Shown piece after piece: positions 2,764 through 28,189 of a stretch of 62,680 nt of DNA. The notes below the pieces were generated by a model. The model was not told the DNA's origin. It saw only the letters and a list, made by a program, of their open reading frames with translations, and made no database searches. Made by a program: the position numbers and the translations under genes. Source of the DNA: Acidobacteriota bacterium (lineage in GTDB: Bacteria > Acidobacteriota > Terriglobia > UBA7540); assembly GCA_902812365.1 (NCBI GenBank), contig CADDZC010000005.1:37501-100180 (forward strand). Direction: 5' to 3'. Each line of letters begins with the position of its first letter. Position 1 is the stretch's first letter.

Positions 2764-3594
2764 ATGCCGGAGCCGCTGCGACTCCCCGCCGTAGCAGGCC
2801 GGTTCTATCCCCTCGACAGTGCCAGCCTAGCACGAGACCTGGATGCCTACCTAAGAGTCCAGGAGCCACCAGCTCCCCAGGCGAAGGACGCGGTGGCCTG
2901 CATGGTGCCGCATGCTGGCTACATGTACTCGGGGCATGTGGCCGGCGAGGTCTACCGGCGGCTTGCGCCCTGCGATTCGTGCATCGTGCTCGGCCCCAAC
3001 CATTTCGGGCGGGGCAGGGCAGCGTTGGCGCTGATTTCACACGGGTCCTGGGTGACACCACTGGGAAAGGTGGAAATCGACGAGGACCTCTGCAAGCTGC
3101 TTGTGCAGGGCTGCCCCCAAGTGGAGGAGGACCCTGAGGCACACGCCGGTGAGCATTCGCTGGAGGTGCAGATACCGTTTCTGCAGAGGGTCTTCCGGTC
3201 CTTCAGGTTGGTTCCCGTGGCTGTAGGTGCTGGCCGCTATGACGTACTGGAGTCGCTGGGCCATGGGGTAGCGCACGCCGTTCGGAACGCCGGCAAGAGC
3301 GTGCTGATTGTGGCCTCCACTGACTTGAATCACTACGAGCCCGACGAGCCGACGCGAATCAAAGACCGCAAGGCCATCGACCGCATTCTGGCCTTGGACC
3401 CTCAGGGCTTGTACGAGGTCATCGCCCGCGAGGATATTTCGATGTGCGGATTCGGGCCGACCATAGCCATGCTGGTAGCTGCCCGGGAGCTGGGCGCCAA
3501 GCGGGCTGAGTTGGTAAAGTACGCCACTTCTGCCGACACCAGCGGCGATCGTAGCGCAGTGGTGGGCTACGCGGGTATTATTGTGTCGGCGTAG
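2764..3594 (+). CDS. amrB: Memo-family protein (AmmeMemoRadiSam system protein B)
   Basis: A 276-residue protein of the Memo/AmmeMemoRadiSam B family, structurally related to extradiol dioxygenases but of uncertain reaction. Family landmarks are all visible: VPHAGYMYSGH (H50, H58), LGPNHFGRG (H80), GEHSLEVQIPFLQ, STDLNHYEP and the late Cys in MCGFGP. These His residues form the presumed metal site. In many genomes this protein is encoded beside an AMMECR1 protein and a radical SAM enzyme. Neither is next to it here, so the partners must lie elsewhere if the system is complete. A small upstream gene ends 80 nt before it. Confidence 0.88.
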   Translation: MPEPLRLPAVAGRFYPLDSASLARDLDAYLRVQEPPAPQAKDAVACMVPHAGYMYSGHVAGEVYRRLAPCDSCIVLGPNHFGRGRAALALISHGSWVTPLGKVEIDEDLCKLLVQGCPQVEEDPEAHAGEHSLEVQIPFLQRVFRSFRLVPVAVGAGRYDVLESLGHGVAHAVRNAGKSVLIVASTDLNHYEPDEPTRIKDRKAIDRILALDPQGLYEVIAREDISMCGFGPTIAMLVAARELGAKRAELVKYATSADTSGDRSAVVGYAGIIVSA

Positions 3595-3615: not shown

Positions 3616-3783
3616 GGAGGTGGGCGCGGAGGGGTGGCCGGTCCCAGGGAGAAGGGGGGCGTTTCCTAACCAAGGTTTACGGGCTGGCTCCTGGTTACGT
3701 GCGCCGGCGTGGCGCGGCCATGGTCGCCTTGCCGACGCGCACGGGCTCCCGCCGTTCGACGCCTTCATTTTTCAGAATCGCCC

Positions 3784-8776: not shown

Positions 8777-9159
8777 TTGTTAGGAATGTTAGCGTTGTAT
8801 AAACGCCGCGGTGATCTGCCCGGCGGGCGTGCCCCCTTGCATAGCATTTTGACCAAATGAACCGGATATGTTGTTGAAAAATCGAGGCGAGTCTAGATTT
8901 GATCTTAGCCTGTGACCGTCCCATGATGCCCATTCCATCGGGCGCTGTAGGTGCTGAGGCGTGAGGTGCCGGCAAGCCGTGCCCTTCTGGAACCTAGGAA
9001 ACAAACCCCTGTTGGGAGGCTCGCTCTGCCCGCGACCCGGAGGAGCTTGGCTTTATCCATCCAATAACGGCTTTTGATTAGTCGCCGCCGGACAGGATGA
9101 ATATACTGGTGAGCCGGTACGCCGCGTGACCGGGCACATTTTTGTCGAGGGAGACTGGC
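8777..9159. other. Upstream region of amt with repeat copy B
   Basis: About 380 nt without a gene. It holds repeat copy B (8847-8887) and, nearer amt, a TATACT (9102-9107) that could be a -10 box but lacks a -35 at proper spacing. No sigma54 (-24/-12) element was found, although nitrogen genes often have one. Confidence 0.5.
8847..8887 (+). repeat. Dispersed intergenic repeat, copy B
   Basis: Reads TTTGACCAAATGAACCGG, then ATATGTTGTTGAAAA and ATCGAGG. It differs from copy A at about four positions over 41. It points toward amt, about 270 nt upstream of the start codon, and lies 70 nt after the Pr6Pr stop codon. Confidence 0.8.
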
Positions 9160-21707: not shown

Positions 21708-24700
21708 CTATGCTTCTCGCGACAGATAGAACTGCACCGCTGGCGTGATGATCAGGGATAGGACCATCGAAACCAGGATACCCCCGATCACGGCGATGGC
21801 CAGCGGCTGCAGCATCTGCGACCCGGCACCCAGGGCCAAAGCAAGGGGCAGCATGCCGGCGACAGCGGCTAGTGCGGTCATGGCGATGGGACGCAGGCGG
21901 CGGCGCCCGGCCTGGACCATCGCCTCCTCGGCGGAGAATCCGGAGGCGCGGAACCGCTGGTCCGCGTCGAGCAGCAGGATACCGTTCTTGGCTACGATGC
22001 CGATCACCATGATGAGTCCCATGAACGAGGAAATATTGAACGTCGTGCGGGTGACGAGCAGCGCCAGGACGACGCCCGAAGTCGAGAGCACGGCGGAGGA
22101 AAGTATCGCCGCCGGTGCCGTGAAGGTGCGGAATTCAAACAAGAGGACCAGGAACACCAGCACCAAGGCCAGCAGCAGCACCGTCACCAGATCGCGAAAC
22201 GACTTCTGCTGCTCCTGGTAGGTGCCGCCGTAGACGACACGGATGGAAGGAGGCAGGTTGAGATCGCGCACCGCCTTCTGCACGGCTTTGATACCGGTAC
22301 CCAGGTCGACGCCCTCGAGCCGCGCCGTCACCGCAACGTTACGCTGCAAGTTCTCGCGCAGGATCTCCGTCTGGCCGGGCAATTCGATGAGGCTGGCGAG
22401 CGAACCAAGGGTGGCCGTCTGACCGCCGGCGCTGGTGAGCAGGGTGTTGCTCATGGCTTCGAGGGACGAGCGGCAGTACTCGGGAAAGCGAACGCGCAGT
22501 GTATAGGGGACGCCGTTGACCACCACGGGTGTGGGCGTAGGCTCGCCTTCGAGCAGCGCCGCGGCGTCGGTGGTCACTTCCTCGGGGGTGAACCCGGCGC
22601 GCGCCGCTCGCGCGGGATCCACCTGATAAACGACGGCGGGGCCGCTGATGGTATTGTCGATGCCGTTCAGGATGTCGACCACTGACCTCTTGCCGCCGAA
22701 CTGGATCTTGCCGATCGCCTCTGCCACTTTGGGCGCCCACTCAGCCAGTAGGCCGGCGTTCGGCGAGAAGAGCTTGATCTGGATGGGCTGGGGGGCGCCG
22801 GTAAGGTCGCCGATCATGTCCTGCAAGATCTGGATGAATTCGACATCGACACTGGGCTCTTTTTCAGCGATTTGCGCGCGCAGGTCGCTGATGATCTCCT
22901 CAATGGTGCGGCGGCGCTTCTGCTTGAGCTTTACGGAAATGTCGCCGCTGTTGGCTTCGGTTACGGTTGCCAACCCCAACTGCATTCCCGTGCGGCGCGA
23001 TGTGCTTTCAACCTCCGGGATGGCGCGAATCATTTGCTCAAGGTGCGTCACCACGCGATCGGTCTCTTCCAGGGAGCTGCCGGCGGGCATGATGTAATCG
23101 AGGATGAAACCGCCTTCATCCATCTCCGGAAGCAGGTCCGTGCCCAGCGCCTTGTAGCCGACGTCGGAGAGCACCACCAGGATGGCGCAGAAGGCGGCGA
23201 GCCAGCCGGGATGTTCGAGGGCGCGGCGCAGCCAGCGCTCGTAGAAGCGGATGACGCGGCCAAAGAAGCCGGTCATGGTGGCTTCCTCTGCCGCCAGCAG
23301 CCGCTGCAGCTCCTGGTCCTCGGGGCTCAGCTGTTCGGTGGCTCCTGCCGGAGGTGGACCGTCGCCGGCGGGCGCGTTCCATGCTTCCCGGTGCTTCGGT
23401 CGCAGCAGGTGCATGCTGAGGTTCGGGGTCCACACCAGGGCCAAAGCGAGCGAGGTAAACAACGAGACGGCCATGGTGACGGCGAGGGCGCGGAAGAAGG
23501 TGCCGGCCACGCCCGTGATCGAGATGAGCGGCAGGAAGACGACCACCGGGGTGATCGTAGAGCCGATGAGAGGTATGGTGATCTCCTTCAGCGCGCTATG
23601 AATCGACTCCAAGCGCCCTTCGCCGGAGTCGCGGTGCAGGACGATGTTCTCCACCACCACGATGGCGTCGTCGATCACCAACCCGACGGCCGCGGCCAGC
23701 CCGCCCAGCGTCATCAGGTTGAAGCTCTCACCCAGCACGCGCAGGGCGATGAACGTCACCAGCACGGTGACGGGAATCACCAGGCCGGCTACCACCGACG
23801 TTCCCCAGTCGCGCAGGAAGACCACCAGGATGATGGAAGCCAGAACCAGACCGATCAGGATGGCATCCCGCACGCTCTTAATGGACTCGGTTACCAGGGT
23901 CGCCTGGTCGTAGAAGTTCTGCAGGACAACGCCGCGGGGCAGCGTCTTCCGGATCTGTTCAATCTCGGCGTGCACTTCATCCGCCACAGCCACGGTGTTG
24001 CTCGTTGGCTGGCGATTGATGCTGAGCAGCACGGCCGGCTTCGCGTTCGCGGTCACGATGGTGTAGACGGGCTTCACCGACGGCCCCACGCTGGCCACGT
24101 CCTCGATGCGCACCGGAACGCCATCCTTGGTGGTCTTAATGACCACCTGGGAAATCTCGGCCGGATCGTGCACCTGAGCGGTGACCAGTCCCAGATGGAG
24201 CTGGTGGTTGCGATTGAGCAGGCCCGGCGAATCAATCAGGTTCGTACGGCGAACGGCATCGAGAATGTCCGGCACTGTCACGTGCGCCTCCAGTAGCTTG
24301 GCCGGGTCGGGAGTGATTTGAAACTCAGGTTCCTGCCCACCCTGCACTAGCACACTGGCAACGCCGCTTAGGCGATTGAGCCGCGGCTTAATCTCGTAGG
24401 TGGCCATTTCCCAAAGCTGGGTTTGGGGGACGGCGTCTGACGTAAGGCTGTAACCCATGATGGGAAAGCTGGCAAAGGTCAACCGGTGCGCCTCCAACTG
24501 GACCGTCGGCGGCAAGGTTGCCTGGACGCGAGCCAGCGCCGAGTTCACTAGCTGCAGGGTCTGGAACATGTCCACGTTCCAGTCGAAGAAGAGGTCTACC
24601 TCCGCCGACCCGCGGCTGGTGATGGAGCGCACCGTCTCGAGACCCGGCACGCTATTCACCGCTTCTTCGATGGGCCGCGTGATGGAGACCATCATCTGGT

Positions 24701-24914
24701 CGATGGGCATGACGCCGTTTTCCGCACCAATAAGGATGCGGGGGAAGTTGGTTTCCGGAAAGACCGCCACGGGGATGCTAAGCGCCAGGTAGCCCCCAAC
24801 CAAGGCCAGCGTCACGATGAGGAAGATGATGGACTTGGAGTGGCGGGCGAACCAGTAGGCTTCATCGGGAGGCTTTCCTTTGTTTTCAATCACTTGGTGG
24901 CTTCGAACCTGCAT
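21708..24914 (-). CDS. RND-family efflux pump, inner-membrane permease
   Basis: A 1068-residue proton-driven pump of the AcrB/CusA superfamily, forming a trimer that hands substrate to the TolC-like exit duct. It has 12 membrane helices in two halves, each with a large periplasmic loop. The helix-4 signature GLAAAVGLVIDDAIVVVEN contains the paired Asp of the proton relay. The second half repeats the pattern (GLIMVIGIVAKNGILLLD). The sequence is nearer to heavy-metal or multidrug pumps of soil bacteria than to AcrB, and the substrate cannot be told. The ATG at 24914 fits the family start. A GTG at 25067 would add 51 poorly coding residues. The TolC and adaptor genes lie upstream. Confidence 0.93.
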   Translation of the reverse strand: MQVRSHQVIENKGKPPDEAYWFARHSKSIIFLIVTLALVGGYLALSIPVAVFPETNFPRILIGAENGVMPIDQMMVSITRPIEEAVNSVPGLETVRSITSRGSAEVDLFFDWNVDMFQTLQLVNSALARVQATLPPTVQLEAHRLTFASFPIMGYSLTSDAVPQTQLWEMATYEIKPRLNRLSGVASVLVQGGQEPEFQITPDPAKLLEAHVTVPDILDAVRRTNLIDSPGLLNRNHQLHLGLVTAQVHDPAEISQVVIKTTKDGVPVRIEDVASVGPSVKPVYTIVTANAKPAVLLSINRQPTSNTVAVADEVHAEIEQIRKTLPRGVVLQNFYDQATLVTESIKSVRDAILIGLVLASIILVVFLRDWGTSVVAGLVIPVTVLVTFIALRVLGESFNLMTLGGLAAAVGLVIDDAIVVVENIVLHRDSGEGRLESIHSALKEITIPLIGSTITPVVVFLPLISITGVAGTFFRALAVTMAVSLFTSLALALVWTPNLSMHLLRPKHREAWNAPAGDGPPPAGATEQLSPEDQELQRLLAAEEATMTGFFGRVIRFYERWLRRALEHPGWLAAFCAILVVLSDVGYKALGTDLLPEMDEGGFILDYIMPAGSSLEETDRVVTHLEQMIRAIPEVESTSRRTGMQLGLATVTEANSGDISVKLKQKRRRTIEEIISDLRAQIAEKEPSVDVEFIQILQDMIGDLTGAPQPIQIKLFSPNAGLLAEWAPKVAEAIGKIQFGGKRSVVDILNGIDNTISGPAVVYQVDPARAARAGFTPEEVTTDAAALLEGEPTPTPVVVNGVPYTLRVRFPEYCRSSLEAMSNTLLTSAGGQTATLGSLASLIELPGQTEILRENLQRNVAVTARLEGVDLGTGIKAVQKAVRDLNLPPSIRVVYGGTYQEQQKSFRDLVTVLLLALVLVFLVLLFEFRTFTAPAAILSSAVLSTSGVVLALLVTRTTFNISSFMGLIMVIGIVAKNGILLLDADQRFRASGFSAEEAMVQAGRRRLRPIAMTALAAVAGMLPLALALGAGSQMLQPLAIAVIGGILVSMVLSLIITPAVQFYLSREA

Positions 24915-25063: not shown

Positions 25064-25102
25064 TCACGTATTTTCAATAACTTGGTGGCTTCGTTCCTTC
25101 AT
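25064..25102 (-). CDS. 12-codon ORF mimicking the pump's N-terminus
   Basis: It reads MKERSHQVIENT and then TGA. The real pump begins MQVRSHQVIEN, so 9 of the first 11 residues agree, and 29 of the first 34 bases match. It starts 188 nt upstream of the pump ATG. Its TGA overlaps a GTG (25067) that opens the pump frame, as in coupled genes. It may be a leftover of a partial duplication of the gene start, or a leader peptide. There is no strong ribosome-binding site, so translation is uncertain. Confidence 0.4.
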   Translation of the reverse strand: MKERSHQVIENT

Positions 25103-25214
25103 TTTTCGTTTAGGGTCTCGGAAGATCGCTCCCAGGAGGGTCCTTCGAAATCCGGTCCGCTCTGGGTTCCTCACCAGTTTAGTTCGGAAGCTGCCGGTGT
25201 CCAGGTATATCGCG

Positions 25215-26747
25215 TCAGATTCGTGTGCATTGCTCACGAAAGGTGCAATCCTCGCTTTTTGTGTCTTTTGTCGCCTTTGTTTTGGCCTCCCTGATCCTAC
25301 TTTTCCTTACTTTCTCCTTACTTTCCTTCCCGTGCTGAGGCTGGTCCACCTGCACCCTGGTATTATCCGGCAGGCCATAGGCGCCGACACTCACGACGGT
25401 TTCTCCTGGCTTTAGTCCGTCGGTGATCTGCACGCTGTCGCCGTCCCGCACCCCGGTTTTGACAACGCGCTGATGGGCCCTACCGTCGTGCCCAACAACC
25501 ATGACGGTGGTTGTTCCATCGGAGGCAGCAAGAATGGCGGAAGCGGGCAGCACCAAGGCGTTCTCCAAAGTCTGGGCAGTGATCGTGACTCGTGCGCTCG
25601 AGCCCGGCCGGAGTTGCCCGTGCGGGTTGGGAGCTTGCACCCACACCTCGACAGTGGCACTGTTTGGATCAAGCGCTGGGCTCACCAGTGTCACCTTTCC
25701 CCTTACCTCATTTTCGTTGCCGGCGGGTGAGCCTCCCGTTGGACCCGCACTCATGAAAATGCTAGCCGGATCTCCCACACGCAAGGCGACAGCTTCCGGC
25801 GGTGTGATATGAGCGCGCGCCACAATCTGCGAGGTATCCATCACGGTGATTAGCGGCGAGCCGCTGGTAGCCATCTCGCCAGCGTAGAGGGGGCGGTCGG
25901 TGACCACGCCGTCGATGGGGCTGCGAATCTCGGAGTAGCTGAGCTGGGCCCGTGCCACCTCGTATTTGCCCTTGGCCGAGGTCAGTTGACCCTCCGCAGC
26001 CTTCAACTCCTGCTCGCGGCCGAATGACTTTAAGGCTTCGAGGTGCTGAGCCGCGATTTCGTAGGCATTCTTGGCCTGGATGTAGGCCACCAGCGCGTCC
26101 TCCACGTCCTTGCGCGGCGCGGCCCCCTGGGCGAAGAGTCGCTGCCGGTTCTCGTAGATCTTCTGCTGGGCGTCCATCTGCTCCTTGGCAGCCTTGGCGT
26201 CCAGCTCCGCCTTGCGGATCTCCTCCGGAACGTTGCCACGTACAGCAGTCTCGTAGGCAGCCTGGGCCTGTTCGAAGGCACCGCGGTTGTCGATTTCAGC
26301 CGCCACCAGGTCCCGGTTTTCGAGTTCGGCCAGAAGCTGCCCGGCCTTCACGTGAGTGCCACGCTCGACGTAGAACTTCTTCACAGGAGCGCTAATCTTG
26401 GGCGCGATCGCCGCCTGCCGGATGGGGTAGATGATGGCTTGGGCTTCGATCTTGCTTGCGATGGGCGCGATACGCGCCTGGGTCACCTGCACGGTTACCA
26501 GGGGTTCGTGTTCAGCCTCCTTGTTCGAGCAGGCAAAGAGCGGAAGTAACAGCGCGGCGACGATCAGGAGTAAGGCTGCCTGCCCGCAGGCGCTGCCGCG
26601 GGTTGTCTCCTCAGCCGTTCGTAGGTTGCCGGCTCCGCCGCTTCCCCCAGGAAGGCGGGGTGGCTGGCCGCAGAGTTGTGCGAGCTCTTTACTTGAGGGA
26701 ACGGAGACGAAGGGCGAAAGAGGAAGGCTCATGTGGCGGTTCGCCAT
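25215..26747 (-). CDS. RND efflux periplasmic adaptor (membrane-fusion) lipoprotein
   Basis: A 510-residue adaptor linking the RND pump to the TolC-like duct. After a long N-terminal stretch there is a lipoprotein signal (LLLPLFACSNKE, lipidated Cys). A barrel-sandwich half (SAPVKKFYVERGTHVKAGQ), a coiled-coil hairpin of about 110 residues, the second half (YSEIRSPIDGVVTDR) and beta-barrel domains follow. The last 38 or so residues are Lys-rich and encoded by short tandem purine repeats (25296-25330), unusual for the family. The ATG at 26747 lies 4 nt past the TolC-like stop codon, and an in-frame TTG at 26753 overlaps it. The true start could also be later, nearer the lipoprotein signal. Confidence 0.9.
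   Translation of the reverse strand: MANRHMSLPLSPFVSVPSSKELAQLCGQPPRLPGGSGGAGNLRTAEETTRGSACGQAALLLIVAALLLPLFACSNKEAEHEPLVTVQVTQARIAPIASKIEAQAIIYPIRQAAIAPKISAPVKKFYVERGTHVKAGQLLAELENRDLVAAEIDNRGAFEQAQAAYETAVRGNVPEEIRKAELDAKAAKEQMDAQQKIYENRQRLFAQGAAPRKDVEDALVAYIQAKNAYEIAAQHLEALKSFGREQELKAAEGQLTSAKGKYEVARAQLSYSEIRSPIDGVVTDRPLYAGEMATSGSPLITVMDTSQIVARAHITPPEAVALRVGDPASIFMSAGPTGGSPAGNENEVRGKVTLVSPALDPNSATVEVWVQAPNPHGQLRPGSSARVTITAQTLENALVLPASAILAASDGTTTVMVVGHDGRAHQRVVKTGVRDGDSVQITDGLKPGETVVSVGAYGLPDNTRVQVDQPQHGKESKEKVRKSRIREAKTKATKDTKSEDCTFREQCTRI
25296..25330 (-). repeat. Short tandem purine repeats at the adaptor 3' end
   Basis: On the minus strand about three imperfect copies of an 9-11-nt unit, AAAGTAAGG with A/G variations, stand in a row. 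They encode the basic tail KESKEKVRKSR of the adaptor. Slippage in such a tract could change the tail length or frame. Confidence 0.5.
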
Positions 26748-26749
26748 CT

Positions 26750-28189
26750 TCAAAAGCTCCCCGTCAGAGTCTGGAGGTTGGCCAAAGCGGCGCGGTAGCG
26801 GGCCTGGCCATCGTCGTAGGCGTTGCGGGCCTGGGTGAGCGTGTTCTGGGCATCGACCAGCTCGAGCGCTGTCGCTTCTCCCGCCTCGTAGCGCAGACCC
26901 GTGAGCCGCAGGCTTTCGGCGGCTAGTCTCGCGGCCTCGCGCAGAGACTCGGCCTCGGTACGGGCGGCCAGCGCTTCGTCGTAAAGCGCGTAGAGATTCG
27001 CCAGGAGCTGCCGCTGGGCCTGAGTGAGCTCGAGCTGGGCCTGCTGGCGGTGAAATTCAGCCTGCTTCAGCTTGCTGCGCGTGGCGCCCCAGTTCCAGAT
27101 GGGTACGTTCAGCGTGACGGTAGCAAAGTAGCCGAGGTTGGGAAGCCTGAGAGTAGGATCGGTGATGCTGGTGCTCTTAAGGGCTACGGCGTTTGCCTCG
27201 ATGCCGTAGTCGACGTCGGTGGTCAGAGTGGGTAGAAAGGCGGCGCGGGCCGCGGAGACGTCCAGCCGGGCCTGCCGCAGGGCGGCGACCGCCGCGCGCA
27301 GGTCTGGGTTTTCGCGCTGGGCCATTGCCTGCACTTCGCTGAAGGAGGGCAGGACAGGCTCCGCTTCGAGGTCGTCGACGACCGTGAAGTTCTCATTGAA
27401 ATTGGGGAAGAGCAGGACGGCCAGCGCCAGTCGTGCTTGCTCCATGCCGAGCTGCGCCTCCTGGAACGCCTGTTTCTGCTGGTCAAACTGGATCTGAGCC
27501 TTGATGACATCGCTGTGGGCGGCCTCGCCGGCGCGCTCCTTGTTCTGGGTAATCCCCAGGAAGCGCTGAGCCTGCGCCAGGCTCTCCTGGGCGGTAGCAT
27601 ACTTGCGCTGCGCCACCACCAGCCCATAGTAGGCCTTGGTCACCGTGACGGTCAGGCCTCGGCGGGCGATCTCCTCCTTGGCCTGCGCCAGCGCCTCCGC
27701 GGCGCTAGCCCGGTGGTAGGCGGTCCGCTGGAAAGTAGCGGGCGAGAAGTCCTGGTGGAAGACACCCCAGATGCGGTAAACGTGGACGCCGTCGTTGGTC
27801 ACATAGCGGCCGGAAGGCAAGTGGCCGTTCCCCTGCGTGCCCAGATACTCGGAGTGAAAATTCAGGGACGGCAGCAGAGCCGCGCGGGCCTGGACACGGT
27901 CTTCATGGGCCACGCGCCTATCGCTGACCGCAGCATTATAAGAGGCGTCGTTGTGCCGCGCCCGCTCGAGGGCGTCGCGCAAGGTGAGGGTGAGCGGAGC
28001 ACCCGAAGGCGAGGGCGCCTGAATAAGCTCGAGCGCCGACTGGACTGCGGGTCCAGGCGGTGGCTGCAACTGGCCGTAAGCCCCTGAAGGACCGTTGGTT
28101 AAGGCCCACATCAGTGTGGGAATCGCAAGATAGCCACGGCTTGGCTGCCCCTTTCCGGTTAGAGAGTGCCGAACGCTCGGTCTCGCCAT
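26750..28189 (-). CDS. TolC-family outer-membrane efflux protein
   Basis: A 479-residue protein expected to form the trimeric exit duct of the tripartite pump. Two OEP repeats are visible. The first begins LTLRDALERARHNDASYNAAV and carries long Ala/Gln-rich helices. The second begins PSFSEVQAMAQRENPDLRAAV. The C-terminal repeat end is YEAGEATALELVDAQNTLTQA. The N-terminal export signal is weak. The ATG at 28189 is chosen because AAGGAG lies 8 nt upstream; the frame remains open for 65 more codons, which look non-coding. It is the first gene of the three-gene pump operon. Confidence 0.92.
   Translation of the reverse strand: MARPSVRHSLTGKGQPSRGYLAIPTLMWALTNGPSGAYGQLQPPPGPAVQSALELIQAPSPSGAPLTLTLRDALERARHNDASYNAAVSDRRVAHEDRVQARAALLPSLNFHSEYLGTQGNGHLPSGRYVTNDGVHVYRIWGVFHQDFSPATFQRTAYHRASAAEALAQAKEEIARRGLTVTVTKAYYGLVVAQRKYATAQESLAQAQRFLGITQNKERAGEAAHSDVIKAQIQFDQQKQAFQEAQLGMEQARLALAVLLFPNFNENFTVVDDLEAEPVLPSFSEVQAMAQRENPDLRAAVAALRQARLDVSAARAAFLPTLTTDVDYGIEANAVALKSTSITDPTLRLPNLGYFATVTLNVPIWNWGATRSKLKQAEFHRQQAQLELTQAQRQLLANLYALYDEALAARTEAESLREAARLAAESLRLTGLRYEAGEATALELVDAQNTLTQARNAYDDGQARYRAALANLQTLTGSF

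Follow-up and report, generated by a model that had tools for sequence, protein, structure and literature searches.

What does it mean when a 12-codon open reading frame (ORF) upstream of an RND efflux pump gene encodes nearly the same residues as the start of the pump itself? In the window, by which we mean the whole 62,680-nt stretch of Acidobacteriota DNA that was analyzed, the ORF translates as MKERSHQVIENT-stop and the pump frame, read from the ATG at 24914, begins MQVRSHQVIENKGKPPDEAYWF (in a longer read, MQVRSHQVIENKGK). Direct comparison confirmed the observations of the first-pass annotation: the two starts share 9 of 11 residues and 29 of 34 bases, they are 188 nt apart, and the terminal TGA of the ORF (25066-25064) shares bases with a GTG (25067-25065) at which the pump frame opens. 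As a start codon for the pump this GTG is unsupported; it would add a 51-residue extension that is absent from orthologues. The likeness between ORF and pump is not due to chance, since a 22-nt core, allowing up to three mismatches, has two occurrences in the window and is absent from all 100 shuffles.

We find that the resemblance almost certainly reflects two copies of a dispersed repeat, with a unit of ~22-40 nt and the core GAAGCCACCAAGTTATTGAAAA. A 501-bp query around the ORF gave 34 more matches in the window's own genome bin (G000), nearly all to the same 30 nt, and a pattern search for the core within three mismatches returned 55 copies in this bin and none for the reversed-pattern control. 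With a degenerate pattern there were 91 copies in Acidobacteria bacterium isolate 21 (G001), 74 in the genome G010 and 59 in the genome G023, with none in the controls; among the 39 genomes of this family of uncultured Acidobacteriota, 25 were positive for the pattern, and a narrower one had no matches in 16 searched genomes of other families. Searches of the open-access literature by phrase, topic and sequence returned no report of the repeat, which, rather than the tiny ORF, is the real feature at this locus and is apparently undescribed. A local duplication of the pump 5′ end, private to the locus, would also leave two similar stretches at this distance from one another, but it is refuted by the presence of the same sequence genome-wide; in addition, the likeness does not extend past the repeat and the stretch is missing from pump orthologues, so that we give this explanation almost no credence. 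The earlier suggestion of a residual duplication of the gene start is thus correct in that the two stretches are homologous DNA, but what was copied is a dispersed intergenic repeat and not the start of the pump. The positions of the repeat copies and of the genes around them are collected in Table 1.

Table 1. Repeat copies, the reported ORF and associated genes in the window
Feature	Position	Strand	Remark
12-codon ORF	25064..25102	-	Essentially within repeat copy 1; ORF not conserved
Repeat copy 1 with conserved flanks (AAAAATGAAGGAAC + core + TACGTGA)	25064..25107	-	Consensus of G001 copies
Repeat copy 1, 22-nt core GAAGCCACCAAGTTATTGAAAA	25071..25092	-	Pattern search
Repeat copy 2, 22-nt core GAAGCCACCAAGTGATTGAAAA	24883..24904	-	In-frame as pump RSHQVIEN
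Start-codon variant of repeat (ATGCAGGTTC + core)	24883..24914	-	Common to two unrelated G001 genes
RND efflux pump (ACR_tran)	21708..24914	-	1068 aa from ATG within repeat copy 2
HlyD/CusB-like membrane fusion protein gene, upstream of pump, same strand	25215..26753	-	
Sister sub-family copy GAACCGGATATATTGTTGAAAA	2063..2084	+	Upstream of Memo-like gene (2764-3594)
Sister sub-family copy GAACCGGATATGTTGTTGAAAA	8859..8880	+	Upstream of ammonium transporter
Sister sub-family copy GAACCGGATATGTGATTGAAAA	42474..42495	-	Upstream of molybdopterin oxidoreductase
Sister sub-family copy GAACCGGATATGTTGTTGAAAA	57345..57366	-	Upstream of AMP-binding ligase

The HlyD/CusB-like gene and the pump probably belong to one operon, with the ORF in the gap between them. 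Pump orthologues in other genomes do not carry the repeat and begin with unrelated short N-termini, and an orthologue elsewhere in the same bin, with 75% identity, is likewise without it. In G001, two unrelated genes, one HlyD-like and the other encoding an endonuclease/exonuclease/phosphatase-family protein, start with the ATGCAGGTTC variant, and a third ORF, apparently for a large membrane protein without a Pfam match, starts MKERSHQVIENTQ and so contains all 12 residues of the reported ORF. A repeat copy appears to supply the apparent start codon and the first ~12 codons in at least four apparent, unrelated genes (the window pump and these three).

The first-pass annotation had also raised the possibility of a leader peptide, attenuator-like or coupled, that is translated to control the pump. 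Leader peptides and attenuators likewise place a short ORF upstream of a gene, and the stop codon that overlaps a GTG in the pump frame is in keeping with such an arrangement, but here the ORF is not conserved. An ATG is present at the ORF start position in only 4 of 34 G001 copies of sub-family 1, a comparable short ORF is present in one of the 34, the stop codon is not conserved in sister copies either, and many G000 copies have TAA or TAG in place of the Q codon. The differences between copies are non-synonymous or frame-shifting: one-base changes in length shift the reading frame, and the core changes A/G, C/T and A/G/T alter or stop the encoded peptide. No good Shine-Dalgarno sequence was seen before the ATG when the region was read, and relatives retain the sequence without the ORF, an outcome that the first-pass annotation had itself named as refuting its proposal. 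Judged from the sequences, the conserved entity is the DNA and not the peptide, and we regard a translated leader as very improbable. The 12-codon ORF is neither a small gene nor a private duplication; a suspected leader peptide gives way to a family-wide repeat, and the case is a warning that repeats can create both apparent small genes and apparent protein N-termini. A leaderless small ORF ending RSH-stop in G000 was also considered and set aside; it was seen at single loci, and on reading its frame did not seem consistent.

The organization of the repeat differs between genomes. Outside the window contig, the G000 arrays span ~250 nt with copies at 0, 52, 93, ~147 and ~199, the later ones shifted by ~10-11 nt in some arrays, and with one inverted copy besides; their cores are nearly invariant and their spacing rigid, over diverged spacers and unrelated flanks. 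Spacing is also rigid in G010, whereas the copies in G001 occur singly, paired or tripled at variable distances. Helical phasing was suggested by the G000 spacings (52, 41, 53-54 and 52, with the +10/11 variants) but not by those of G010 (66) or G001, and was dropped. G001 carries the window's variant GAAGCCACCAAGTTATTGAAAA, extended in the consensus to AAAWTTTGAAGGAAC-core-TACGTGA, and also a sister sub-family, TTTTGACGAAAC-GAACCGGATATGTTGTTGAAAA, of which there are four copies in the window and none elsewhere in the bin. Two copies from one genome resemble each other more (0.88) than two from different genomes (0.83), and copies at orthologous sites are no closer to each other than non-orthologous copies; together, these results suggest concerted evolution or co-evolution with a factor.

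That the window carries G001-like variants bears on its origin. Its tetranucleotide profile correlates at 0.994 with G001 and at 0.927 with the other contigs of its bin, the halves of which agree with one another at 0.992. Both the pump and the AMP-ligase of the window have diverged orthologues elsewhere in the bin (75% and 63%, respectively), and the contig makes up ~2.9% of the bin compared with an estimated contamination of 2.5%. The contig is probably mis-binned and derived from a G001-like organism; G001 itself is not the source because it has no close homologues of the pump and the AMP-ligase.

The copies are strongly oriented with respect to genes. For 46 of 49 intergenic copies (the window and 40 G001 loci), the nearest downstream gene is on the same strand, where genes are those called in this analysis with a codon model and individual starts are approximate. 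The downstream genes are unrelated in function and include HisD, Mur ligase, UvrD, CcmF, ThiC, SpoT-like, EF-P and IMPDH. When a sample of 17 sites from G010 was compared with one of 19 from G023, five orthologous genes proved to be preceded by a copy in both genomes, against a chance expectation of ~0.1 (an estimate that assumes ~4000 genes), and these shared sites argue for old positions. G000 and G010 share a copy site before the IMP dehydrogenase (IMPDH) gene, and orthologous sites are retained while the flanking intergenic DNA diverges. Ahead of most G000 arrays stands a strong promoter-like sequence directed towards the array; in most loci it resembles TTGACA-N17-TACTAT, with the array some 150-230 nt further downstream. 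By contrast, several G001 sub-family-2 copies, read by eye, lie upstream of promoter-like sequences. The proposal of a promoter-capture remnant is not supported in the form in which it was made, though the repeat is indeed a 5′-flanking element. A shared promoter module, TATACCTGGAC, proved to be confined to a few loci, and likenesses to IHF sites, ECF promoters and the ends of CRISPR repeats, judged by eye only, were discarded.

Arrays that follow a promoter could be parts of a structured, riboswitch-like 5′-UTR RNA, and the one inverted copy in the G000 arrays does allow a stable hairpin. The RNA analyses argue otherwise: there was no Rfam covariance-model match at the gathering score, the consensus fold (RNAalifold) contained no pair with a two-sided change, and pairing was no better between spacers of one locus than between those of different loci, a comparison that also disposed of a pairing across copy D seen by eye. 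Of four single copies that were folded none was significant, and the window copies folded no better than shuffles, in tests that covered the copies rather than the whole 188-nt leader. We consider a structured RNA of this kind improbable.

As a whole, the explanation that we favor, and consider likely, is that the 12-codon ORF is an intergenic copy of a dispersed cis-element whose sequence is conserved, and that a second copy happens to cover the pump start and there provides the apparent start codon and first ~12 residues. The element may be an array of binding sites, at the level of DNA or RNA, for a putative trans-acting factor that co-evolves with the repeat, and its site of action in the window would be the stretch that separates the pump from the membrane-fusion gene. 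The regulatory component, for which the mechanism is inferred, is proposed more tentatively. A cis-regulatory site array is preferred because of the orientation of the copies, the conservation of sites and the genome-wide drift of the sequence; it is disfavored by the differing position relative to promoters, downstream in G000 but upstream for several G001 sub-family-2 copies, and by the contrast between the rigid spacing of G000 and G010 and the variable spacing of G001. Arrays of operators for global regulators are similar in having conserved, oriented short sites 5′ of many genes (46 of 49 here), with some orthologous sites conserved and a motif that drifts with the genome, but differ in that the unit here is long and non-palindromic, the genes are without a theme and the factor is putative. 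More speculative, and somewhat unlikely, is a lineage-specific regulatory system in which a long non-palindromic motif, arrayed 5′ of unrelated genes by the dozen, would change sequence in step genome-wide through a dedicated co-evolving factor, with some copies read as the N-terminus of the protein itself. If the regulatory reading is true, the repeat would exert global control in a phylum that has received little study.

The main rival is a short repeat of the MITE or REP type, selfish or neutral, that propagates within intergenic DNA; one of its copies would have come to lie over the pump start and been absorbed. With biased insertion or retention 5′ of genes, such a repeat could give much of the same picture: there are tens of copies per genome, their genome-specific signatures suggest amplification or gene conversion, and the adjacent genes have no common theme. 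Spread of this kind does not readily account for the strict orientation towards downstream genes, the retention of orthologous sites within diverging intergenic DNA or the conserved copies at fixed spacing over diverged spacers, and no REP transposase gene is present in G000 or G001; on balance we think it somewhat unlikely. Like REPs and REPINs mobilized with RAYT enzymes, the copies here are short, intergenic, present in tens per genome and often paired, but they are direct repeats that run the same way as the downstream gene, and they are not palindromic in themselves. Identity with the REP/RAYT system was rejected because G000 and G001, which are rich in copies and stand nearest to the window, gave no Y1_Tnp (RAYT) match. 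MITE-like repeats such as ERIC, BOX and Correia elements are dispersed, non-coding, located near genes and sometimes fused to coding sequences, in all of which they resemble the repeat described here. They differ from it in that no terminal inverted repeats were seen, the conserved unit is only 22-40 nt and the copies form fixed-spacing arrays in some genomes.

Several minor observations were made in the course of this work. A UvrD-like helicase gene has its likely start at a GTG furnished by the end of a repeat copy (CACGTGA; L079:2051-2080), and two in-frame repeat copies (VKVRSHQVIES...KRSGQVIEKIGLAMP) lie within a 54-codon ORF that precedes an adenosine deaminase gene (L078, minus strand, reverse-complement index 2210-2370). 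In the window, a possible small ORF lies between the first sister sub-family copy and the Memo-like gene. The G010 and G023 arrays (L172, L180-L237) follow a conserved leader, CTTGACA..GGCCTAGCATGGTAGTCT and then GGGACAAATGAGACGAATGGGACAAAAAA, as if leader and array were transcribed as one unit. An exact match to the core was found in a viral-contig collection (L104, IMGVR_UViG_2832936583_000003, 3744-3765), possibly in bacterial flanking DNA. Finally, copies of the sister sub-family (sub-family 2) are accompanied, about 60-150 nt on their upstream side, by a second motif, rich in TGTA (like TGTAAACAACGTG and TTGTAAGCGTTGT), which recurs at loci L238-L257 and, in the window, near 8800, 42550 and 57500.
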